A stretch of DNA of 64,000 nt from Ruminococcus sp. (GTDB lineage Bacteria; Bacillota; Clostridia; Oscillospirales; Ruminococcaceae): NCBI GenBank assembly GCA_017525915.1, contig JAFXSC010000022.1:372001-436000 (forward strand), given 5' to 3'. The number at the start of each line of letters is the position of its first letter. The first letter of the stretch is position 1. Positions 52,722-63,902 of this stretch are shown here, in pieces. The notes under the pieces are model-generated. The model ran no database searches. It was given only the letters and a program-made list of their open reading frames with translations, and was not told the origin of the DNA. The translations under genes and the position numbers were made by a program.

Positions 52722-53861
52722 TCACAGCCTGCTGCGGAAATCCTCATACCCGAAACCGGCAAGAAGTTCTGTGCTGCCGTCCTCGTTCAGAAGATAGATG
52801 TCAGGCAGCGGCATACCGTTGAAGGTATTGTTCTTGACCATAGAGTATATCGCCATATCGCCGAAAACGAGCCTGTCACCAATAATCAGCGGCGCATCGA
52901 AGGAGTATTCCCCTATAACATCGCCTGCGAGACAGGTCTGCGAACCGAGCCGGCAGCTGTATGGCTTCTCCCCGGTTTTCCCGGAACCCATAAGCGGCGG
53001 ACGGTAGGGCATTTCCAGCACATCCGGCATATGACAGGCTGCAGAGGTATCGAGTATGGCAATCGGCATATCGTTCTCTGTAAGGTCGAGCACCTCTGTC
53101 AGCAGATATCCGGCATTGAGAGCAACAGCCTCGCCGGGTTCAAGGTATACCTCCAGACCGTACTTCTCCTGCATATGGCGTATGCAGCGTTCAAGCCGCG
53201 GTATATCGTAATCAGAACGGGTGATGTGATGACCGCCGCCGAAGTTTATCCACTCCATAGCCGGCAGTATATCACCGAATTTTTCCTCGACAGCATCAAG
53301 TGTGCGTTCGAGGTCGTCCGAATTCTGCTCACACAGTGTGTGGAAGTGCAGACCGCTCACACCCCTGAGATCGTCCGGCTGGAAATTCCTCCGGGTTATG
53401 CCGAGCCTTGACTTTTGCGAGCAGGGGTCATATATCTCATGTCCTTCCTGCGTGGAAAACTCGGGATTTATGCGAAGACCTATCTTTTTTCCGGCTGTAA
53501 GCACACGGTCACGGTACTTATCGAGCTGAGTGAAGGAATTGAAGATGATATGGCCGCAGTAATCGATGATCTCGTCGATCTCGCTTTCACGGTAGGCGGC
53601 GGAGAACACATGATTCTCCTTTCCCATTTCCTCATAGCCCAGTCTTGCCTCGAACAGTCCGCTGCACGCAGTTCCGGCAAGGTACTCCCCTATCACCGGA
53701 TAAAGATGATAGCAGGAGAAAGCCTTCTGTGCAAGTAATATCTTAGCGCCGGTACGTTCCTGCACGCCCTTCAGTATCTCCAGATTGCTCCGGAGCTTAG
53801 CCATGTCGATGACATAGCACGGAGTAGGCAGAGCCGCAGTTTTTTCAAGTATGCCGTTCAC
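52722..53861 (-). CDS. nspC: Carboxynorspermidine/carboxyspermidine decarboxylase NspC
   Basis: A 379-aa PLP enzyme of the alanine racemase fold (group IV decarboxylases) that decarboxylates carboxyspermidine or carboxynorspermidine to the polyamine. PLP lysine is Lys46 in ILLAQKAFS, the glycine-rich WINFGGGHHITR and the C-terminal SAACHMPDVLEMPYRPP are diagnostic of CANSDC. Its partner dehydrogenase is two genes upstream. Overlaps the YbjQ gene by 4 bases. Confidence 0.94.
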   Translation of the reverse strand: MNGILEKTAALPTPCYVIDMAKLRSNLEILKGVQERTGAKILLAQKAFSCYHLYPVIGEYLAGTACSGLFEARLGYEEMGKENHVFSAAYRESEIDEIIDYCGHIIFNSFTQLDKYRDRVLTAGKKIGLRINPEFSTQEGHEIYDPCSQKSRLGITRRNFQPDDLRGVSGLHFHTLCEQNSDDLERTLDAVEEKFGDILPAMEWINFGGGHHITRSDYDIPRLERCIRHMQEKYGLEVYLEPGEAVALNAGYLLTEVLDLTENDMPIAILDTSAACHMPDVLEMPYRPPLMGSGKTGEKPYSCRLGSQTCLAGDVIGEYSFDAPLIIGDRLVFGDMAIYSMVKNNTFNGMPLPDIYLLNEDGSTELLAGFGYEDFRSRL

Positions 53862-54172
53862 TGTACGAACCTTACGGCAGTACCGTAAGCAACTACCTCA
53901 GCCGCCCCCTGTGCGACCTCTGATGACATATATTCAAAGCCAACGATAGCATCAGCCCCCATTGACTGTGCCTGTGCGATCATACGGTCTCTGGCGATCC
54001 TGCGAGCTTCGTTCATCATTTCTGTGTATCCCTTGAGCTCACCGCCGACAAGGTTTTTAAGTCCGGCCATAAAGTCTCTGCCGACATTCTTAGTCTGAAC
54101 AGTAGCACCTTCAGCGATGCCGAGTATCTCAAAATTTCTTCCGGGGATCATATTTGTTGTTGTAATTATCAT
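53858..54172 (-). CDS. YbjQ-family (UPF0145) protein
   Basis: A 104-aa protein of the YbjQ/UPF0145 family, with ITTTNMIPGRNFEILGIAEGATV at the start and ARDRMIAQAQSMGADAIVGFEY in the middle. Family members form pentameric shells; their function is unknown. Between the two carboxyspermidine genes and overlapping nspC. Confidence 0.93.
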   Translation of the reverse strand: MIITTTNMIPGRNFEILGIAEGATVQTKNVGRDFMAGLKNLVGGELKGYTEMMNEARRIARDRMIAQAQSMGADAIVGFEYMSSEVAQGAAEVVAYGTAVRFVQ

Positions 54173-54195
54173 TTTTCATCACCATACCTTTTCTA

Positions 54196-55398
54196 TTAGT
54201 CAACGAGTACCGGATTGAAGTCTTCCTCCCACGGAAGTCCCCACTTGTTGAGAGCTTCCATGAACGGATCGGGATCGAATTCCTCAATGTTGTATACGCC
54301 GGCTTTTTTCCATGTGCCGGTCATTATCATCATTGCGCCTATCATTGCAGGAACACCGGTAGTATAGGAAATAGCCTGCGAGCCGACTTCCTTGTAGCAC
54401 TCCTGATGATCGCATATATTATATAAGTAGTAATTCTTGTCCTTGCCGTCCTTCTTGCCGCGGAAGATGCAGCCGATGTTGGTCTTGCCGACTGTTCTCG
54501 GGCCGAGCGATGCAGGATCAGGGAGCACTGCCTTGAGGAACTGGAGCGGTACAATCTCCCTGCCCTCATACATGATAGGCTCGATAGAGGTCATGCCTAC
54601 ATTTTCAAGACATTTTAAATGTGTAAGGTAGCTCTGACCGAATGTCATGAAGAAGCGTATGCGCTTAATGCCCTTGATGTTGAGAGCGAGTGATTCAAGC
54701 TCTTCATGGTGGAGAAGATACATATCCTTCTCGCCTACACCCTTGAAGTTGTAGACGCGCTTTATCTCCATAGGCTCAGTCTCTACCCACTTGCCGTCCT
54801 CGATGTAGCTGCCCTTTGCGGACACCTCGCGGATATTTATCTCGGGGTTGAAGTTGGTTGCGAACGGGTAGCCGTGGTCGCCGCCGTTGCAGTCGAGAAT
54901 ATCTATATAGTTTATCTCATCGAACTGGTGCTTCATGGCATAGGCGGAGTAAACGCCTGTTACGCCGGGGTCGAAGCCGCTTCCGAGAAGGGCTGTAATG
55001 CCTGCCTTCTCAAATCTCTCGCGGTATGCCCACTGCCACTTGTATTCAAACTTTGCGGTATCAAGAGGCTCATAGTTGGCTGTATCGACATAATGGGTCT
55101 TGGTTGCAAGACAAGCGTCCATGATCGTAAGGTCCTGATAAGGCAGGGCAAGATTGAGCACAACGTCAGGCTTGTAGCTGTTGATAAGAGCAACGAGTTC
55201 GTCAACATTGTCAGCATTGACCTGTGCAGTTTCGATAACTGTCTTTGTTGTAGGCTGAAGCTTTTCCTTGAGCGCGTCACACTTTGACTTTGTGCGGCTC
55301 GCTATCATTATGCCCTCAAATACCTCGCTGTTCTGGCAGCACTTGTGGATCGCAACGGAAGCAACGCCTCCGCAGCCGATGATCATACATTTTCCCAT
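54196..55398 (-). CDS. Carboxynorspermidine/carboxyspermidine synthase (dehydrogenase)
   Basis: A 400-aa enzyme of the saccharopine-dehydrogenase fold, joining putrescine (or diaminopropane) with aspartate semialdehyde and NADPH. The Rossmann loop IIGCGGVASVAIHKC begins the protein, and GSGFDPGVTGVYSAYA plus CNGGDHGYPFATNFNPEINIREV distinguish carboxynorspermidine synthase from lysine-forming enzymes. Full length. It starts the second spermidine route in this cluster. Confidence 0.93.
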   Translation of the reverse strand: MGKCMIIGCGGVASVAIHKCCQNSEVFEGIMIASRTKSKCDALKEKLQPTTKTVIETAQVNADNVDELVALINSYKPDVVLNLALPYQDLTIMDACLATKTHYVDTANYEPLDTAKFEYKWQWAYRERFEKAGITALLGSGFDPGVTGVYSAYAMKHQFDEINYIDILDCNGGDHGYPFATNFNPEINIREVSAKGSYIEDGKWVETEPMEIKRVYNFKGVGEKDMYLLHHEELESLALNIKGIKRIRFFMTFGQSYLTHLKCLENVGMTSIEPIMYEGREIVPLQFLKAVLPDPASLGPRTVGKTNIGCIFRGKKDGKDKNYYLYNICDHQECYKEVGSQAISYTTGVPAMIGAMMIMTGTWKKAGVYNIEEFDPDPFMEALNKWGLPWEEDFNPVLVD

Positions 55399-55413
55399 TG
55401 AAATAAAACCTCC

Positions 55414-55962
55414 TTATAAATTATATGCATCTTTTTTCTTGTAGCAGATGAATATTACAACACCGGCAAATACTGCCGAAGTTATTGCAAGCAAAGTGAA
55501 AAGTCTCGCGTACATTCCGTCCGTCACACTCTCGGCGCGGGCAGTTTCGAGGATATCGCCCTCTTCAACGTCCGACGACTTCATGATCTCGTTATACCGT
55601 GTGTCCCAGTGCTTCAGATAGGCAACACTTACCATATCTCCTATTTCATCGTCCGCACTTCGCGGGATATAGAACGATCTCGTCTGTCCGCCGGCGAATG
55701 TCACATCGACCTTGCACACGCGGTAGAGATCAAGAAGAGTAAGCGAATTGCAGTTCGTACCGTTGAGCGTTTTGAAGCTCTTTATCGGCACCTGAACAAC
55801 TGTATAGCTTTCCGGGGTGCTCTTGTAGTCCTCGTAATCGCGGTTCACCCAGTCCTTGCCGAGCTGACTGTTAGCATAAGCGAAAACTCCGCTAATTATC
55901 ATAATCAGGACAGCTCCGATGAACAGTCCCTTCTCTAATTTTGTCTTTAATATTTTACCCAT
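55414..55962 (-). CDS. Unrecognised membrane protein in the polyamine cluster
   Basis: A 182-aa protein with helices near residues 12-30 and 150-175 and an extracytoplasmic domain of about 115 residues between them. I do not recognise a family. The layout resembles the DUF3592 protein encoded just upstream, of which it may be a divergent relative. It is 12-15 bases from its neighbours, so it belongs to the polyamine operon. Confidence 0.7.
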   Translation of the reverse strand: MGKILKTKLEKGLFIGAVLIMIISGVFAYANSQLGKDWVNRDYEDYKSTPESYTVVQVPIKSFKTLNGTNCNSLTLLDLYRVCKVDVTFAGGQTRSFYIPRSADDEIGDMVSVAYLKHWDTRYNEIMKSSDVEEGDILETARAESVTDGMYARLFTLLAITSAVFAGVVIFICYKKKDAYNL

Positions 55963-55974
55963 ATCGTTTCTCGC

Positions 55975-56544
55975 TTAGTCATAGCGGCTGTCTTCATCTT
56001 CATACCTGTTGTATTCAGCAACGGAACTGATATAATCACCGTCCAAAGCTCCGTCAGAACGTTCATTGCTGACATATACCAGTTCTTCTCCGCTTCCGGC
56101 TTCACGCCTTCCTCTCGCAATTGCGATCGCCAGCGGTATGAACAGTCCGAGTGCAGCAAAAACAAAGCCTAATATCGTGAATACCAGCGAAACCGTTCTA
56201 GTCGTTTTATCGTCAGGAACGAAGAACACCTTCGGATCATCAGGGTCTATGTACATTTCGACCTTCTCACCGACACTGAACTGCGGCGGATATGAACCGG
56301 AGCTGCTTCTGATCCGGTATTGCTGACCCTTGTATGTATAGCTGTAAACAGGATAGACTGCTTTGCTGTCCGAATCTCTGCTGCGTACATTTTCGCATAC
56401 AGTAGCCGTCAGCTTGTATGTGCAGCGCTTTTCCCTGTTTTTCCTCACAACGCCCAGTATCATCCCCACAGCTGCAAATATCGCTCCGAAGAGTATGACT
56501 GCTGCCGAGACAATGGCAAGTACCTTATTGTATTTTATCTTCAT
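55975..56544 (-). CDS. DUF3592-family membrane protein
   Basis: A 189-aa protein with two helices (about residues 8-32 and 118-145) around an extracytoplasmic domain with YPVYSYTYKGQQYRIRSSSG and VEMYIDPDDPKVFF, the pattern of DUF3592. Function unknown. It overlaps speB by 4 bases. Confidence 0.82.
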   Translation of the reverse strand: MKIKYNKVLAIVSAAVILFGAIFAAVGMILGVVRKNREKRCTYKLTATVCENVRSRDSDSKAVYPVYSYTYKGQQYRIRSSSGSYPPQFSVGEKVEMYIDPDDPKVFFVPDDKTTRTVSLVFTILGFVFAALGLFIPLAIAIARGRREAGSGEELVYVSNERSDGALDGDYISSVAEYNRYEDEDSRYD

Positions 56545-57392
56545 GACATTGCAAGCAGCATCTCACGAATGACCTTGCAGGCAACCGCGGTCGATACTCC
56601 ACTCTGGTCGTAGACGGGGCTGAGCTCGTTGACATCGCAGCCGACTATGTTCAGCTCGCTGCAAACGAGAGTGAGTGCCCTTCTGAGCTGGTCGAATGTA
56701 ACTCCTCCGGCTTCGGGTGTGCCTGTGCCGGGGAATACCGACGGGTCAAGGACATCAAGGTCGATCGTGAAGTAAACGTTCTTCCCCTTCAGCCTTGCAA
56801 CAACGTCTTCAAGTCCTTCAAAGCCGAACCTGTGCATCTCGGTATGCTCATCTGCAAAGCGGAACTCGTCCCTATCGCCGCTCCTGATGCCGAACTGGAA
56901 GATATGACCGTCACCGACGCGTTCCCAGCAACGGCGCAGGACGCAGGCGTGAGAGAGCTGCTGACCGAGGTAGTCGTCCCTGAGGTCGGCATGGGCATCA
57001 AAGTGTACGATATAAAGGTCATCGTATCTGTCCTTTACTGCCATGACAGAGCCGAGAGTTACAAGGTGCTCGCCGCCTATCATGAACGGTATCTTTCCGT
57101 CGGATAGTATCGCGCCCGCACGGATCGCAATATCCGCGACTGCTCTGCTCGTACTGCCGAACGGAAGCTCAATGTCTCCGCTGTCGAAATATGAATAGTC
57201 CAGCATATCCTTGTCCTGATAGGGACTGTAAGTCTCAATGCCGAAGCTCTCGTTCCTTATCGCGGAAGGACCGAAGCGCGTTCCCGGACGGAAACTTGTA
57301 GTGCCGTCGAAGCCGGCACCGAAAAGAACGATCTTAGCGTCCGCATACTCGCTGTCACAGGCGATGAAGGTCTGTATATTCTTATTCAACAT
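56541..57392 (-). CDS. speB: Agmatinase SpeB
   Basis: A 283-aa ureohydrolase that hydrolyses agmatine to putrescine and urea. Binuclear manganese ligands are in IGGEHLVTLG, the VHFDAHADLRDDYLG block and TIDLDVLDPSVFPGTGTPEAGG. Start at ATG 57392 with GGAGGAG 10 bases upstream; it overlaps speE by 10 bases. Agmatine rather than arginine is the expected substrate because a decarboxylase lies in the same operon. Confidence 0.95.
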   Translation of the reverse strand: MLNKNIQTFIACDSEYADAKIVLFGAGFDGTTSFRPGTRFGPSAIRNESFGIETYSPYQDKDMLDYSYFDSGDIELPFGSTSRAVADIAIRAGAILSDGKIPFMIGGEHLVTLGSVMAVKDRYDDLYIVHFDAHADLRDDYLGQQLSHACVLRRCWERVGDGHIFQFGIRSGDRDEFRFADEHTEMHRFGFEGLEDVVARLKGKNVYFTIDLDVLDPSVFPGTGTPEAGGVTFDQLRRALTLVCSELNIVGCDVNELSPVYDQSGVSTAVACKVIREMLLAMS

Positions 57393-58233
57393 CTTTGAGA
57401 AGCTCCTCCACATAGTTCGGCAGCGCGAATGAACCGACGTGCAGCCTTGAATTATAGTATTTTGTCTTTATCCCGAGCATATTCCATTTTGAACCGCTGT
57501 AATCGTTGGTCGGGTGATACTTCTTTGAAGCAAAGCCGAACAGCCAGTGCCCCGAGGGATATGTCGGGATATGTGCCTGATATACCTTGCTTATCGGGAA
57601 GCTCTGGACTATCCTCTTGTGCGAGCGCTGCATAGCCGCAGCGTCCTCAGTGTAGAACGGACTTTCGTGCTGATTGACCATTATGCCGTCTTCATGCAGG
57701 GCATTGAAGCAGCTTCCATAGAATTCCTTGGTGAAAAGTCCCTCTCCCGGTCCGAACGGGTCGGTCGAATCAACTATTATCACATCGTATTTGTCTGTGC
57801 AGCGGCGTATGAACTTCACGCCGTCCTCATAGTAAACGTGTACCCTCGGATCATCGAACCGACAGGCTGTTGTCGGCAGATACTGCTTGCATACCTCAAC
57901 GACAAGCTCGTCTATCTCAACGAGGTCTATATTCTCAACAGAACTGTACCTTGTAAGCTCGCGGACGACTCCGCCGTCGCCTGCACCGATAACGAGGATA
58001 TTCTTCGGGTCAGGGTGTACAGCCATAGGTACATGAGTTATCATCTCGTGGTAGATGAATTCGTCCTTTTCTGTCAGCATCATGTAGCCGTCAAGCGTGA
58101 GAAAGCGTCCGAACTCCTTGGAATCAAAAACGTCAATACGCTGGAATTCACTGTTGCCGCTGTAAAGCTGATGATCTACCTTTATTGAAAATTTAACATT
58201 GGGAGTATGACGCTCCGTAAACCAAAGTTCCAT
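57382..58233 (-). CDS. speE: Spermidine synthase SpeE
   Basis: A 283-aa aminopropyltransferase that transfers the aminopropyl group of decarboxylated SAM to putrescine. The N-terminal beta domain is followed by VIGAGDGGVVRELTRY and VDSTDPFGPGEGLFTKEFY, the SAM and catalytic signatures. It overlaps speB, as usual for coordinated production. Confidence 0.96.
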   Translation of the reverse strand: MELWFTERHTPNVKFSIKVDHQLYSGNSEFQRIDVFDSKEFGRFLTLDGYMMLTEKDEFIYHEMITHVPMAVHPDPKNILVIGAGDGGVVRELTRYSSVENIDLVEIDELVVEVCKQYLPTTACRFDDPRVHVYYEDGVKFIRRCTDKYDVIIVDSTDPFGPGEGLFTKEFYGSCFNALHEDGIMVNQHESPFYTEDAAAMQRSHKRIVQSFPISKVYQAHIPTYPSGHWLFGFASKKYHPTNDYSGSKWNMLGIKTKYYNSRLHVGSFALPNYVEELLKDVE

Positions 58234-58248
58234 ATTTTCCTCCGTTTC

Positions 58249-58743
58249 TTATTCATCTTCCCTGTCTCCGGCATGAGGCGGAGGTCCGCTCGGCACCTCG
58301 CCCTTCATAGCTATTTTTAGGTATACAGGCGTGAGCAGGAAAGCGAGAATGAAGCCTACGACAAGACCTATTCCCAGCGAGGTGAGCAATGCCGGCAGGA
58401 AATTCATCTCAACATCGTGCTTCTTTGACATCATATAGGCGTATGAAACCATTGACAATGTCATAACAGGCGTGAAGATAAAGTCCATTACAAGGCTTTC
58501 AAGTACCCTTGCACCTGTCGAGCCCCTTTCAAGTCCGCACCTGCTGCTCGCACCCTTCGCAATGCTACCGACCGGTACAAAGAAGCCTATCACAAGGCTT
58601 ATGGCCACACTTATGAGAAAGCTTATGAGAAAACCGGGAACAGAAAAATGCCCCGACATCAGGTTGCCTATGAGCGACATACAGAAACTCATAGTAATCC
58701 CCATCATCACCGACATCTTTCTTCCGACTCTTTTCATATTCAT
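58249..58743 (-). CDS. Four-helix membrane protein of unknown function
   Basis: A 164-aa protein with predicted helices at about 11-31, 36-58, 88-107 and 118-142 and an acidic/histidine C-terminal tail. I do not recognise a family with confidence. It is in the polyamine operon between speA and speE, 13-15 bases from each; transport of polyamines is possible but not shown. Confidence 0.7.
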   Translation of the reverse strand: MNMKRVGRKMSVMMGITMSFCMSLIGNLMSGHFSVPGFLISFLISVAISLVIGFFVPVGSIAKGASSRCGLERGSTGARVLESLVMDFIFTPVMTLSMVSYAYMMSKKHDVEMNFLPALLTSLGIGLVVGFILAFLLTPVYLKIAMKGEVPSGPPPHAGDREDE

Positions 58744-58755
58744 AATAAAAACTCC

Positions 58756-60209
58756 TTAAATCAGTACATTCAGTCTCTCTATGTTTATGTCCTCAGTACC
58801 CGTCATCTGACAGCCCTTTTCCTTGGCATATTTGATATACTCTATTATCTCCGGTGTTATCAGCTCGCCGGGAGCGAGTATCGGTATTCCGGGAGGATAG
58901 CACATAACGAACTCAGTGCAGACATTTCCGGCAGCCTCGTCGAGCGGGAGCGAACGCTTCTCCGCGTAGAATGCCTTTCGCGGAGTTTCCGCAACTATCG
59001 GGTTGATATACTCCTGAGTGAGCATACCAGCACCGGACTTACCGAATCTGCGTTTTATCTCTGCCATTGCACTTATAAGTCGCTCTATATCGCGCTTGCG
59101 GTCACCTACCGAGACATATGCAAGGATATTGCCTATATCACCGAATTCGATCTGTATATCATACTCGTCCCTGAGAAGGTCATACACCTCGATGCCTGCA
59201 AGACCAAGCGGAAGTGTGTGTACGGAGAGCTTTGACACATCAAAATCGAATATACTGTCGCCGTTAATAAGCTCGCGCGAAAAAGCGTAATATCCGCCGA
59301 TAGCATTTATCTCCTCACGGGCGTACTCTGCCATTTCAACGGTCTTTGCGAATATCTCCCTGCCGCTGAGGGCAAGCCTCTTGCGCGAGATGTCCAGACT
59401 TGAAAGCAGCAGATACGAAGCACTGGTGGTCTGGGTGAGGTTGACTATCTGGCGCATATAGTCCGAATTGATAGCCTTTCCCATGAGCAGGAAAGAGCTC
59501 TGTGTAAGGCTTCCGCCGGACTTGTGCATACTTGCGGAGGCTATATCCGCTCCGGCAGCCATTGCCGATACCGGAAAGCCCTCTCCGAAGTAGAAATGTG
59601 TGCCGTGCGCTTCGTCCACAAGAACGAGCATACCGTGAGCGTGAGCGAGCTCAGTAATGCGTCTGAGGTCGGAACAGATACCGTAATATGTGGGATTGTT
59701 GACCATTATCGCCTTGGCATCAGGGTTTTCCTTTATAGCCTGCTCGACCTGTGCAACGGACATTCCAAGGGCTATACCCAGCTGATGATTGACGTCCGGA
59801 TTGACGTATACCGGCACAGCGCCGGTGAGGATTATCGCATTTATAGCGCTCCTGTGAACGTTTCGCGGCATGATTATCTTGTCGCCTTCCTTGCAGGCGT
59901 ACATTACATACTCTGTACCGCTGATGTTGTACCTCCGACCATGAAGAAGGCGTTTTCCGCACCGAAGGCCTGTGCCGCAAGCTCCTCCGCGTCCTTGATG
60001 ACGGATACGGGGTGGCAGAGGTTGTCCAGAGGCTTCATGGAATTGACGTCAACGTTCATGCAGTCTTCGCCGAGGAACTCCGTAAGCTCCATATTTCCCC
60101 TGCCGCGCTTATGGCCGGGAACATCGAACGGAACTATCCTCATTCTGCGGAACCGCCGCAGAGCCTCATATATCGGGGCATCGACCTGTGTAAGCTCAGT
60201 CATTGCCAT
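58756..60209 (-). pseudogene. speA: Arginine decarboxylase-like gene speA, split by a frameshift
   Basis: A group III PLP decarboxylase of the Orn/Lys/Arg family (about 485 aa if joined, like Bacillus SpeA), probably decarboxylating arginine to agmatine since speB follows. The first part, 60209-59904 (101 aa, [18 protein letters not shown]), ends VGGTTSAVQSM and a TAA. The second part, 59904-58756 (382 aa), resumes at MYACKEGDKIIMPRN and carries the PLP lysine in SMHKSGGSLTQSS. Homologues run through this point, usually as SM-x-MY, so one G seems to be missing near 59906. The TAATG overlap could allow reinitiation; a sequencing error is also possible. The start overlaps speD by 14 bases. Confidence 0.85.
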
Positions 60210-60966
60210 ACACGTTCCTTCCGCTGAATATTTCTATCATCTCTCGCCTGAGAGCATTTGTGATATCGAGCCTGCTCCTCGGCGGAAGCTCATGGACATC
60301 GGTATTGAACAGATAATTCTGGAGGACGATATCCTTTATGAGCATCTTGGTATGGAACATATTCGCCTGATATACGTTGATATCAACAGCGTCGTACTTA
60401 TCGAGAATAGACTCGTGTATATAATTCTGTATCGAAGTAATATCGTGGTCGATAAAGAGCTTTCCGCCGCCGATATCGCGCGTGAATCCGCGCACGCGGT
60501 AATCCATCGTTATGATATCCGAATCGAAGCTTCCTATTAAATAGTCAAGTGCCGTGAGAGGAGTTATCTTACCGCAAGTGGCAACGTCGATATCCACGCG
60601 GAATGTGGCGATGCTTGTATCCGGATGGTATTCCGGATAGGTATGCACTGTTACATGGCTCTTGTCAAGGTGGGCAACAGTCTCGCTGCCGCCTGCCGGT
60701 ATCATGGTATCATCGGCGATAAGGAAGGTCGCGGAAGCGCCCTGCGGGTCGTAGTCCTGCCTTGAAACACTGAGCACCTGAGCTCCGATCATCTCGGTAA
60801 GGTGCGTCATGATATCTGTTATACGCTCGGAGTTGTACTGCTCGTCAACATAAGCGATATACTCTTGCTGAGCCTTCGGGGTCTTGGCGTAACAGACGTC
60901 GTAGATATTGAAGCTCAGGGACTTTGTTAGATTATTGAAGCCGTAAAGCTTGAGTTTATTTTCCAT
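60196..60966 (-). CDS. speD: S-adenosylmethionine decarboxylase SpeD
   Basis: SpeD (256 aa, the longer Escherichia coli-type) makes decarboxylated SAM for SpeE. It is a pyruvoyl enzyme that cleaves itself before a serine; Ser103 in [13 protein letters not shown] is the expected site. The start is the ATG at 60966 with GAGGTG upstream. First gene of the polyamine operon, 15 bases after the terminator at 60981-61012. Confidence 0.94.
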
Positions 60967-61262
60967 AACACACCTCATATAAAAAAACGCACAGGCTTTG
61001 TCAGCCTATGCGCGTAGTCAAATCTATGCCGATAGCACGGATATGCCTTGGTTTCAGAGTCTATATAAGCAAGAAATTTCACCTTTTACTACTCTTATTG
61101 ACCTTTCACAAGCTGATGAAAACTTATAAAAACGTATCGGCAGACAGCCGAATCAATAAGGCAACAGAAGTTGCCAGCCGGTATTATCCTGCACGTTCTC
61201 CATTCTGACCGGATTGCGTGAGCCGGCGGTCTTGCTTTGAAACCGAAGCTTCTTTTGCAACT
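60967..61262 (-). promoter_or_regulatory. speD leader: candidate riboswitch or attenuator
   Basis: About 295 transcribed bases between the speD promoter and ATG. Its 5' half can pair AAGTTGC with GCAACTT around several internal hairpins, including GGCAAC-TTCT-GTTGCC and GACCG/CGGTC. The 3' end is an intrinsic terminator. The segment CAGCTTGTG (61115-61107 minus) can pair with CATAGGCTG of the terminator 5' arm (two G-U pairs), a candidate antiterminator, and competes with a TTTCA/TGAAA hairpin. I compared it by eye with SAM, SAH, guanidine and T-box patterns and found no match. Confidence 0.6.
60981..61012 (-). terminator. Intrinsic terminator in the speD leader
   Basis: CGCATAGGCT-GACAA-AGCCTGTGCG (10 bp with one G-U pair) followed by seven T on the minus strand, then only ATATGAGG and the speD start. 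It would block the whole polyamine operon when formed. Confidence 0.88.
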
Positions 61263-61268
61263 TGTCTT

Positions 61269-61297
61269 ATTTTATCATATTTTGCGGCTGATGTCAA
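61269..61297 (-). promoter_or_regulatory. speD (polyamine operon) promoter
   Basis: TTGACA (61297-61292), 17-base spacer, TAAAAT (61274-61269). The -35 box lies within the last codons of the YfhO-family gene. Confidence 0.82.
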
Positions 61298-63902
61298 GGG
61301 TTTTATTCAAATCCTTCACACTTTCTTGTTCCGGACGCTTTCTCCGGTCGTACACTAAGAATACCGCAAGCAGGAGCAGTGTCAGAAGAGCGCCTCCAAG
61401 TGAGATATAAGCGCCTTCTTTACGCATCGGCGCGTTGTACTCAAGCTCTATCTCATGTTCACCGGCAGTTATCGGGAAACCGATGAATGCAAGGTCAGTC
61501 TTGTAATACTCCGTTTTCTCACCGTCGACCCTGATAGTGAAGCCCTTGTCGTATGGTATTGTAAAGCAGAACCAGCCGTCCCTGCTTACATTGACCTTGC
61601 CGGAAATCCTGTCGCCGAGAGCCTCGCTGTTGTCAATGATAAGCGGGTCCTTGTTTGAATTGGCGCCGGTAATGACAGAGCCGTCCATAGTGTAAGCCTC
61701 AAAGCCGGAAATATTATAGTAGCCGGGCGAGAATTCCATATCGAGAGCTTCAATAGGCTCGTCGGAGGAAATGATATAGGAGAATACAAAATTACCGTTG
61801 TTGTACTTCCATTTCGGGTCGGTCAGCTTGTTGCTGATGCCGTTGATTTTCAGAATAACGTCAGACTGATAGGCGATAGCTCCGATCCTGTTGTCCGCAA
61901 AGGCAGTGACTATAAGCACCTTGTCCCTGACAGGCTCATCGAGCTCTACCCTCGCCTTGACTTTCTTGCTGCTGTTGACCGTAAAAATCCGGTTCTTGAG
62001 TGATATGCCGTCGTAGTCGGTGAGGTCATTGAAGTCGATATCGAGCTTTTTCGTCCTGTCAGGCTTTTTCCCTTCGGACGCAAACTTCTTCGGAACGATT
62101 ATATTCGTGAGTATGGCTTCGTGCTGGAGCTCGTACTGGAGGTGTATGAATTTGTCCCTCGACATCACATCACCAGAAGCAAAACCTACCGGAAGGGCGC
62201 TGGGATTTTTCATTACCCTGTAACCGCCGTCCGATGCGACCTCAGTCTCGCCAAACATATCAGGGTCTTCCTTTGCGAGCCTGTACCGGCAGCCCATGAG
62301 TGTATTGAAAATAACATTGAGCGGCTGGCGGTGGATAGCATTGTTTCTGGTGCTTATCTCGCTTCCCGATGCGTAGAATCTGAAATCGCGATATTCCGGG
62401 TTAGAAAGCGATGAATAGATATTCGTGGTAAGATAGTCCGAACCGTAGACCATATTAACGCTCATCTCGGAAGTGCTGTCCTCCGCAAAACGGTACACTT
62501 CCCTGTCGCTGTCAAGAATATCCTCTGCAAGATTACGCGGAACATCACTGTACTGCTCGTCAAGTTCCTTCTTTTTTACAAATGAATCCACAAAGCAGAG
62601 TGACACGCAGACTGAAAACGACATCAGCAGCGTCAGGGCGAACAGCAGCTTCTTCCTGTTCTTTCTGATGCAGAAATTCAGAGTCGAAATGAGTATGACC
62701 GTATCCGCTATTACGAATACCGTCTGGATAGTATTGTATGTACCGCTTGCGAACGAAAGTACTACCAGTGCCGGGAACACCCACTTCATAAAACGTATGT
62801 CCGCGCTGCCGTCGAGGTATTTCACGAAAAAGCAGCCGCAGAGTATGAGCAGCAGCGGTATGAACGGTATGAATGCCTTTCCGTCAACATACATGGTGCC
62901 GTTGAACAGGTATGCGATGAGCGGAAAGAGTACGCTCACGGCAATAAGTCCGGAAAGGAAACGCTCGGCACGGCTGCCCTTTCTGAGAAGGGAGATCACC
63001 GATGCCGGAACTATACAGGTAAGACCGGCAGAGTATGCGGTATACAGAAGCACGCCGAAGTTGAGTGTCGGCATGATAAGCGCAGGAAGCGATACATCAA
63101 CAGACGTCGAAGCTCTGCCGTTTGTGATAGCAGCCAGCGACGGAAGCCAGAATCTTGCTGCACATACGCAGCCAAGAACTGCAAACAGAGTCTTCTTCCA
63201 TATCTTCCCGACAATGCCGCTTATGCGGATATCCGGTTCTCTTTCGAGACAGAGGTATATCATGTAGATACCTACCGCAAAGAACGAACCTACACTGTAA
63301 TAATAGCTCGTACACATCAGACAGTAAGTCATGACCGATATCAGCGCGAGCCTTATTACACTGTCGCGTCCTCTGACAAGGAAGAGCAGTCCCAGAAGGA
63401 ACGGATAGTAATTCACGAACATTATGTGCCTGTGGCTGTGGAATATAACAGGTCCCGCAAACAAAAACATAAATGCAAGTATGAGCGGTATCTCCCCTGA
63501 AAAATGCTTTCTCAGGAGGAAGTATACCATTATGGCAGATACAAGCACCTCCGCCATGCTGAGCACCTGTATGTAAAGCGCCATGCTTACGCCGGGCATC
63601 AGATATGCCGGCATATAGAGCGGATTTGCAATGCCGTAATATGCAAGGTTGTAGATATTTTGTCCGCCTCCGAGCTGAAGTGCGAAATCGGGATATCTGT
63701 CACCGGTATCGAAATACCTCGTCCTGAGGTACTCGGGTATCATAAAATGCTGACTGTCCCAGTCAAGTGTTGAGCCCCATACGCAGCCGCGGTTTATGAC
63801 GAGCAGTTCCAGCACGACTATCGCAGCAAATGTCAGTGTCAGAAGGAGCACCGCTGTTAAGCACGGTCTCCTGCTGTAAGAATTCCTGATCCTTTTTATC
63901 AT
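61275..63902 (-). CDS. YfhO-family membrane protein
   Basis: An 875-aa protein with an N-terminal helix at residues 15-37 and about 11 more hydrophobic segments up to about residue 440. A long extracytoplasmic domain (about 440-850) and a final C-terminal helix follow. The start MIKRIRNSYSRRPCLTAVLLL and WDSQHFMIPEYLRTRYFDTG and LGGGQNIYNLAYYGIANPLYMPAYLMP match YfhO, a GT-C-like family implicated in glycosylation of lipoteichoic acid or lipids. No glycosyl substrate is shown here. Its start is 20 bases after mutS2. Confidence 0.9.
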   Translation of the reverse strand: MIKRIRNSYSRRPCLTAVLLLTLTFAAIVVLELLVINRGCVWGSTLDWDSQHFMIPEYLRTRYFDTGDRYPDFALQLGGGQNIYNLAYYGIANPLYMPAYLMPGVSMALYIQVLSMAEVLVSAIMVYFLLRKHFSGEIPLILAFMFLFAGPVIFHSHRHIMFVNYYPFLLGLLFLVRGRDSVIRLALISVMTYCLMCTSYYYSVGSFFAVGIYMIYLCLEREPDIRISGIVGKIWKKTLFAVLGCVCAARFWLPSLAAITNGRASTSVDVSLPALIMPTLNFGVLLYTAYSAGLTCIVPASVISLLRKGSRAERFLSGLIAVSVLFPLIAYLFNGTMYVDGKAFIPFIPLLLILCGCFFVKYLDGSADIRFMKWVFPALVVLSFASGTYNTIQTVFVIADTVILISTLNFCIRKNRKKLLFALTLLMSFSVCVSLCFVDSFVKKKELDEQYSDVPRNLAEDILDSDREVYRFAEDSTSEMSVNMVYGSDYLTTNIYSSLSNPEYRDFRFYASGSEISTRNNAIHRQPLNVIFNTLMGCRYRLAKEDPDMFGETEVASDGGYRVMKNPSALPVGFASGDVMSRDKFIHLQYELQHEAILTNIIVPKKFASEGKKPDRTKKLDIDFNDLTDYDGISLKNRIFTVNSSKKVKARVELDEPVRDKVLIVTAFADNRIGAIAYQSDVILKINGISNKLTDPKWKYNNGNFVFSYIISSDEPIEALDMEFSPGYYNISGFEAYTMDGSVITGANSNKDPLIIDNSEALGDRISGKVNVSRDGWFCFTIPYDKGFTIRVDGEKTEYYKTDLAFIGFPITAGEHEIELEYNAPMRKEGAYISLGGALLTLLLLAVFLVYDRRKRPEQESVKDLNKTLDISRKI

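Follow-up and report, generated by a model that had tools for sequence, protein, structure and literature searches.

The speD leader and the polyamine gene cluster

The 64,000-nt stretch of Ruminococcus sp. DNA analysed here (the window) carries on its minus strand a cluster of polyamine genes, in which speD is followed by a split speA-type gene, a small gene, speE, speB, two more small genes (one of them with a DUF3592 domain family assignment), a gene resembling that for carboxynorspermidine synthase (CASDH), and nspC. The main assignments are as follows:

60196..60966, minus strand: speD, S-adenosylmethionine decarboxylase (TIGR03331, 395 bits against a cut-off of 256)
58756..60209, minus strand: speA-type Orn/Lys/Arg decarboxylase, split over two open frames (60209-59904 and 59904-58756)
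58249..58743, minus strand: small protein, without an NCBIfam or Pfam family at E 0.001
57382..58233, minus strand: speE, spermidine synthase (passes the NCBIfam cut-off)
56541..57413, minus strand: speB, agmatinase (passes the NCBIfam cut-off)
54196..55398, minus strand: carboxynorspermidine synthase-like (CASDH) gene (NF043000; 406 bits, short of the cut-off of 800)
52722..53861, minus strand: nspC, carboxynorspermidine decarboxylase (TIGR01047, cut-off passed)

Both routes to spermidine, the one through speD and speE and the carboxy-polyamine one through CASDH and nspC, lie in this single cluster (52722-60966, minus strand). The two speA-type frames overlap at a TAATG near 59904, and the early stop was seen at one of 30 genus loci checked, that of the window; it may reflect an assembly error, a real mutation or recoding. 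The preliminary description of this DNA spoke of a complete polyamine operon, which is correct for speD, speE, speB, nspC and the CASDH-like gene, and incorrect for the speA-type gene with its frame break near 59904.

Ahead of speD, all leader elements lie on the minus strand:

61269..61297, minus strand: promoter, TTGACA, a 17-nt spacer and TG-x-TAAAAT (extended -10), with 11 of 12 consensus matches
60967..61262, minus strand: leader transcript, its start placed about 7 nt past the -10 box
61239..61252, minus strand: 5' hairpin GAAGC-UUCG-GUUUC, drawn from the sequence and a comparison of genus leaders
60981..61013, minus strand: intrinsic terminator, hairpin 61013-60988 and U7 at 60987-60981 (dG -19.3 kcal/mol)

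With the -35 TTGACA at 61297 and the TAAAAT, preceded by TG, ending at 61269, transcription would start at about 61262, leaving about 296 nt up to the speD ATG (60966); the SD of speD, GAGGTG, occupies 60976-60971, and the U tract of the terminator ends 15 nt ahead of the ATG. The consensus promoter, the leader of roughly 295 bases and the terminator ending 15 bases before the start codon, which had been proposed from the letters alone, were all borne out by this mapping. A promoter of like form (at most two mismatches) stands ahead of the core RNA described below at all 81 core-bearing genus loci. In the window it overlaps the 3' end of the upstream gene for a YfhO-family membrane protein (61275-63902), the -35 box lying within the last codons of that gene and its stop codon just ahead of the -10 box (61275-61297, minus strand). 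The fold of the window leader beats those of 200 out of 200 dinucleotide shuffles (z -3.2). To judge from its sequence, the GUUUCAAAG of the 5' hairpin (61243-61235) can alternatively pair with CUCUGAAAC (61059-61051), and the two structures may compete.

A conserved core and its distribution

Comparison of speD leaders and a search with R1, a covariance model of the core built from 14 sequences and covering 147 positions, gave the following elements in the window:

61054..61178, minus strand: conserved core, matching R1 at 90 bits (E 1.2e-15), the sole match in the genome
61230..61236, minus strand: P1 5' strand AGCAAGA, pairing with 61076-61068 (P1 partners vary together across 104 loci)
61068..61076, minus strand: P1 3' strand UUUCUUGCU, covarying with its partner
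61176..61229, minus strand: variable module, at the site of RF02440 in most genus relatives and without RF02440 here
61160..61175, minus strand: P4 hairpin GGCAAC-UUCU-GUUGCC (double changes in 5 of 5 pairs)
61095..61159, minus strand: P5 domain, closed by UUAUUGA (61159-61153) and UCAAUAA (61101-61095) and holding P5a and P5d (nearly invariant, little covariation)
61137..61151, minus strand: P5a hairpin (changes on both sides in relatives)
61104..61132, minus strand: P5d helix, 5' strand 61132-61121 and 3' strand 61115-61104 (double changes in 1 of 9 modelled pairs, one-sided changes in 4)
61107..61116, minus strand: antiterminator strand UCAGCUUGUG, in the P5d 3' strand, complementary to 61010-61001
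61056..61095, minus strand: P6, AGAGU (61095-61091) and ACUCU (61060-61056), enclosing the conserved strands GUAGUAAAAG and UAUAUAG (double changes in 2 of 5 pairs)

In general the core consists of P4 (GGCAAC/GUUGCC), of P5 (UAUUGA/UCAAUA), which holds P5a and the long P5d (UUUUAUAAG/CUUGUGAAA), and then of P6, and most members beyond the genus have two additional P5 helices, P5b and P5c. The window copy is a diverged member, scoring 90 bits where Bacilli score as high as 163; it is without the ldcC module (see below), P5b and P5c, and its junction is shorter, with GAAAGGUC where others have GAAACGGUC.

Stem cells were paired in 97.1% of cases among 96 aligned members, against 38-49% when the structure was slid along an alignment that was itself fitted to the covariance model and is thus biased toward it; a smaller MAFFT alignment gave 95.3% against 37-47%. 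Among the 96 members, 19 of 35 pairs were double-changed, compared with 8.7 in shuffles and 1-9 in slid structures, and the covariation score was 0.131 against 0.014-0.032 for the latter. Double changes are concentrated in P4, P5a and P5b (5/5 pairs in each), while P5 (1/6), P5d (1/9) and P6 (2/5) come close to invariance, so that for P5 and P5d, the helices key to the proposed switch, support leans on conservation and complementarity.

The remaining helix, P1, connects the strand ahead of the ldcC module to the strand ahead of UAUAUAG, and its partners are diverse yet complementary (AGCAGAUAAUU/AAUUAUUUGCU, GCAAAUAUU/AAUAUUUGC, AAGAAUU/AGUUCUU). At 104 loci, strands from the same leader formed a mean of 8.0 pairs against 5.7 for swapped strands, with at least six pairs in 78 of them; this set has fewer near-copies, and its swaps are restricted to unlike partners, compared with an earlier version on 176 loci (8.7 against 7.4). 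As drawn, P6 crosses P1, which implies either alternation between the two or a pseudoknot. Invariant columns numbered 40 among 43 full-length members, a set chosen by pattern and reduced from 187, and three long, highly conserved strands, GUAGUAAAAG, UAUAUAG and CAUACGGACA, are drawn unpaired.

This arrangement replaces the one first suggested, a 5' multi-hairpin domain closed by AAGTTGC/GCAACTT. Most relatives keep the TTGC and not the AAG before it, and GGCAAC instead pairs locally with GTTGCC as P4, all five pairs of which are double-changed in some members. A conserved structured domain is indeed present; it comprises P4, a P5 with several branches, and P6, and P1 closes it.

Several loci depart from the common plan. 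Insertions of tens to about 160 nt lie between P5a and P5d in one locus (L034) and in the ldcC hairpin in three others (L013, L015 and L016) with the core undisturbed, and since such long insertions are tolerated there, these sites appear to be peripheral. Two genus leaders (L077 and L084) have shrunk to little beyond P5 and the terminator, without GUAGUAAAAG and P6; both keep the UCAGCUUGUG strand, and L077 also a CACAAG terminator arm. In L194, L154 and similar Bacilli loci the leader is longer and has an extra 5' hairpin (UUGGAAAG/CUUUCCAA), and the Bacilli loci read have further conserved 3' sequence ahead of the terminator.

Within the genus, speD was found in 88 of 100 genomes, and 87 speD loci were read (L001-L087), the six partial or weak ones among 93 speD matches being left out. 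The core is present at 81 of the 87; R1 found none elsewhere in the genomes of the other six, so the switch must be dispensable. Two genomes (G006 and G070) have two speD loci each, every one with a leader. L060 has a tRNA gene upstream of its speD (Rfam match at 313-385), and in L070 and L071, which are without the core, a tRNA-like sequence was seen by eye directly before speD. R1 misses two of 98 sources, namely the shrunken L077 and L084.

Beyond the genus, R1 had a match in 48 of the 391 genomes from the window's own class, in 30 of the 299 from that of Bacillus testis (L140, which we take as Bacilli) and in 6 of the 61 from the phylum that includes a Synergistaceae record (L147), always once per genome and under strict filters that lose weak matches. 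Even the seven lowest-scoring loci of the Bacillus testis class (L273-L279) have a recognisable core ahead of a decarboxylase gene. A search of a plasmid collection and a scan of viral contigs for one exact core string found nothing. The conservation and covariation among relatives whose absence was to have spoken against the original proposal are thus seen across three groups, and, as expected of a riboswitch, the conserved covarying structure lies in the 5' leader of genes linked by function.

The ldcC module and known RNA families

The covariance search that had been suggested for this leader returned no Rfam family on the window leader (60900-61400) up to E 5, the sole match up to that value being a weak CRISPR repeat on the opposite strand, inside speD. 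Its outcome differs for the genus relatives, most of which contain a known family: at 58 of the 81 core-bearing genus loci the P1 5' strand and P4 are separated by an additional module (by pattern, with at most two mismatches), and at six of six such loci scanned it scored 49-72 bits as RF02440, 'SpF59_sRNA (ldcC RNA)'. The gathering score of this family was reached by 9 of 11 relatives scanned (49-74 bits), and up to E 1 Rfam found only RF02440 on the leaders of these 11 and nothing on their cores. The RF02440 model has 54 nt and is typed as an sRNA gene, and it leaves out the core, P1 and the expression platform of an RNA of about 210 nt; in most genus relatives it sits in that same leader. 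In the window RF02440 has no match, either at the gathering score (37.2 bits) or up to E 5, and there are 0 matches in the whole genome; by a criterion defined here, and not by Rfam, the core directly 3' of the module position is present in the window (90 bits).

The window is not alone in this, as 23 of the 81 genus members (the window and 22 others) are missing the module and retain the core. On a speD tree of 81 partial sequences, in which 25 of 77 inner branches are well supported, the label 'core without module' changes eight times, at least four of these changes being forced by well-supported branches, which suggests that the ldcC module was repeatedly lost or replaced with the core staying. 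RF02440 matched 27 of 117 genomes of the order, once each, and the core follows at 12 of the 12 loci read (11 by pattern and one by eye). Among loci found by an ldcC string (at least 120) the core lies directly behind in 79 of the 80 listed, with two cut by a contig end. Those listed include Bacillus, Paenibacillus, Neobacillus, Cohnella, Fusibacter and others.

Because most genus relatives contain RF02440, the RNA has to be regarded as partly catalogued, and because the Rfam name 'ldcC RNA' suggests a prior description, we do not claim novelty for that part. The earlier statement that no known class could be assigned agrees with the absence of Rfam matches on the window leader and on the cores scanned. 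Among the open-licence literature matches listed, a set with most subscription papers and all preprints outside it, there was no description of the core or the ldcC RNA, and 'SpF59' occurs there, in the parts of the texts covered, as strain and residue names.

Lysine and other large riboswitches place a large multi-branched aptamer ahead of a terminator, and the RNA described here would work in a similar manner; no Rfam match to them was found in the window leader or on the core of 11 further loci. Neither was there a T-box match in Rfam up to E 5 in 60900-61400. According to PMC10853860, the proven riboswitch for spermidine is a variant of SAM-I known from 13 examples, an off switch in which spermidine triggers termination ahead of polyamine genes including ldcC, speB, speE and speD; the paper adds that further classes seem certain to exist. 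The RNA described here would resemble it as an off switch that uses a terminator before polyamine genes. The spermidine riboswitch has the four-stem SAM-I fold, whereas the window leader has a stem arrangement of its own; membership in the SAM-I variant was rejected on the indirect ground that the Rfam SAM models gave no match up to E 5. The speF leader motif of Alphaproteobacteria, which PMC11477304 treats as unproven as a riboswitch, resembles the window RNA in preceding a polyamine decarboxylase gene. It comes from another bacterial group, and the window leader has no Rfam match to it up to E 5.

A predicted termination switch, its likely ligand and alternative readings

In the window, 61107-61116 can form 10 pairs with the terminator 5' arm at 61010-61001 (-14.5 kcal/mol), a pairing reached by 2 of 1000 shuffled arms and ranking first of 219 leader windows. 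The candidate antiterminator put forward before (61107-61115 with the terminator 5' arm) was therefore recovered, and it is kept across relatives. A terminator-like hairpin was found behind 211 of 226 unique cores, and none behind the other 15. At these 211 loci the complementarity of the terminator 5' arm to the P5c/P5d 3' strand had a mean z of -2.92 against shuffled arms (-4.8 for the window), with z below -1.5 in 176 (54 of 67 in the genus and 122 of 144 elsewhere) and no clear complementarity in 35, and own arms paired at -13.3 kcal/mol compared with -10.7 for swapped arms. Control windows at -130, -100, -70, -45 and +27 gave z of -0.29 to +0.25, with 8 to 25 of the 211 below -1.5; the control at +40 also scored, at -0.85, with 73 of 211 below -1.5.

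Arms follow the core loosely. Several members with a P5c GGCAUA have a UAUGC arm, and in the genus, CAGCUU cores (38 loci) go with a terminator reading GGCUG in 25, GUUGA in 10 and otherwise in 3, the GUUGA arms pairing more weakly. A first, cruder terminator finder misplaced many terminators and had the P5d window as best in just 37 of 155 loci; on those 155 the improved finder yielded 148 loci with a mean z of -3.02, 131 of them under -1.5. As that set left out 72 of 227 unique cores, the window included, where the first finder saw nothing, the full recount took in all 226 unique cores and the window with them, and its figures are slightly weaker than those of the 148-locus test. Read from complementarity, the two pairings would make mutually exclusive expression-platform structures, a second feature of riboswitches, and folded P5 is predicted to go with termination and open P5 with read-through.

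The genes downstream indicate what such a switch might respond to. Considering only loci that were found via the RNA (L001-L087, fetched through speD, are excluded), the next gene, defined as the first open frame of at least 150 aa within 700 nt, is a polyamine gene in 153 of 154 unique loci: CASDH in 74, SpeD in 31, a SpeA/lysine-decarboxylase-type gene in 26 and PotA in 22. These counts leave aside 45 of 232 unique cores without such an open frame, many at the end of a fetched piece. Gene classes were assigned by BLAST against seven reference proteins, and NCBIfam supplied the names of representatives: two PotA proteins pass the potA subfamily cut-off, and the CASDH and decarboxylase representatives fall below curated cut-offs. 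The remaining locus (L099, from the order-level search) has an altered GUAGUAAAAG strand and an M28 peptidase as its next gene, possibly reflecting a change of target or decay. PotA serves polyamine import, and CASDH belongs to a spermidine route that does without decarboxylated SAM. On this pathway knowledge, the PotA and CASDH contexts point to an end product as the signal rather than to SAM or arginine; what unites the genes is the supply of polyamines, through two synthesis routes and uptake, and spermidine is the likeliest single signal.

We consider that the window leader is probably one of the diverged members of a cis-regulatory RNA with a wide distribution, an OFF switch that terminates transcription and so provides feedback on the synthesis and uptake of polyamines, most likely in response to spermidine. 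When P5d is unformed, its 3' strand UCAGCUUGUG (61116-61107) would pair with the terminator 5' arm (61010-61001) and polymerase would read through. A polyamine, likeliest spermidine, may stabilise the folded core and keep the UCAGCUUGUG strand within P5d, and with plentiful polyamine the terminator would form. That a ligand drives the folding, and in this direction, is suggested by the logic of the genes. The ldcC module inside P1 may be an accessory or a second sensor that was lost or replaced in the window's lineage, in which case the core alone must carry the basic switch there. The ligand-sensing attenuator first suggested ahead of a polyamine operon is the reading with the best support, with two corrections: the domain is not closed by AAGTTGC/GCAACTT, and most genus relatives contain the catalogued RF02440.

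Unlikely, in our judgement, is that the conserved attenuator is read by a protein or by the transcription/translation machinery, the protein sensing the polyamine and the RNA being its binding site. The conserved strands drawn unpaired (GUAGUAAAAG, UAUAUAG and CAUACGGACA) could be contacts for such a protein, and some genomes keep speD without the RNA; yet multi-helix conservation over about 200 nt, with the 40 invariant columns in 43 members, is typical of large aptamers, and none of the window genes scanned was recognised as a regulator, two of them being without any family. It also seems quite improbable that the signal is some other metabolite, be it SAM, decarboxylated SAM, agmatine, arginine, lysine or a carboxy-polyamine. 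With speD next in 31 of the 154 loci and a decarboxylase in 26, a substrate or intermediate would be a conceivable signal, but potA (22) and CASDH (74) are more in keeping with an end product than with SAM, arginine or lysine, and the leader has no match to a SAM, lysine or guanidine riboswitch up to E 5.

There is a slim chance that the window copy is a decaying remnant that lost switching after losing the ldcC module: its genome is without RF02440, its P5 is shortened, and the downstream speA-type frame break is seen in 1 of 30 genus loci. Such decay is hard to reconcile with a core scoring 90 bits and with core helices, promoter, terminator and antiterminator that are all present, or with the 23 of 81 genus members that are without the module after at least four forced changes, the core staying. 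Ribosome-mediated attenuation via a leader peptide can be given almost no weight, for while the window leader has short open frames, such as one of 16 codons from the ATG at 61203, that frame lies mostly in the variable module, no frame shared with relatives was seen by eye, and clades differ by one base in the stretch that is most conserved (GAAACGGUC and GAAAGGUC), a change that a conserved frame would not tolerate.

Returning to the feedback OFF switch, we tentatively propose, from the sequences compared, that it may belong to a large, undescribed riboswitch class for spermidine or polyamines in general, with a core of about 150 nt in Bacilli, Clostridia and Synergistota and an exchangeable inner ldcC module, perhaps a second sensor, most members being composite and the window single-module. 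It is a candidate riboswitch class of unusual modular build, and not a new principle. It has been suspected for a long time, and has been difficult to prove, that RNA senses polyamines directly; the many natural variants found here, some of them without the ldcC module, can serve for testing ligand and mechanism. The candidate RNA is far more widespread than the validated class, for which PMC10853860 gives 13 examples, and is tied to genes for both synthesis and uptake. The cataloguing of a 54-nt sRNA would fit a prematurely terminated leader, and that 'sRNA' entry would become a piece of a regulatory RNA of about 210 nt.
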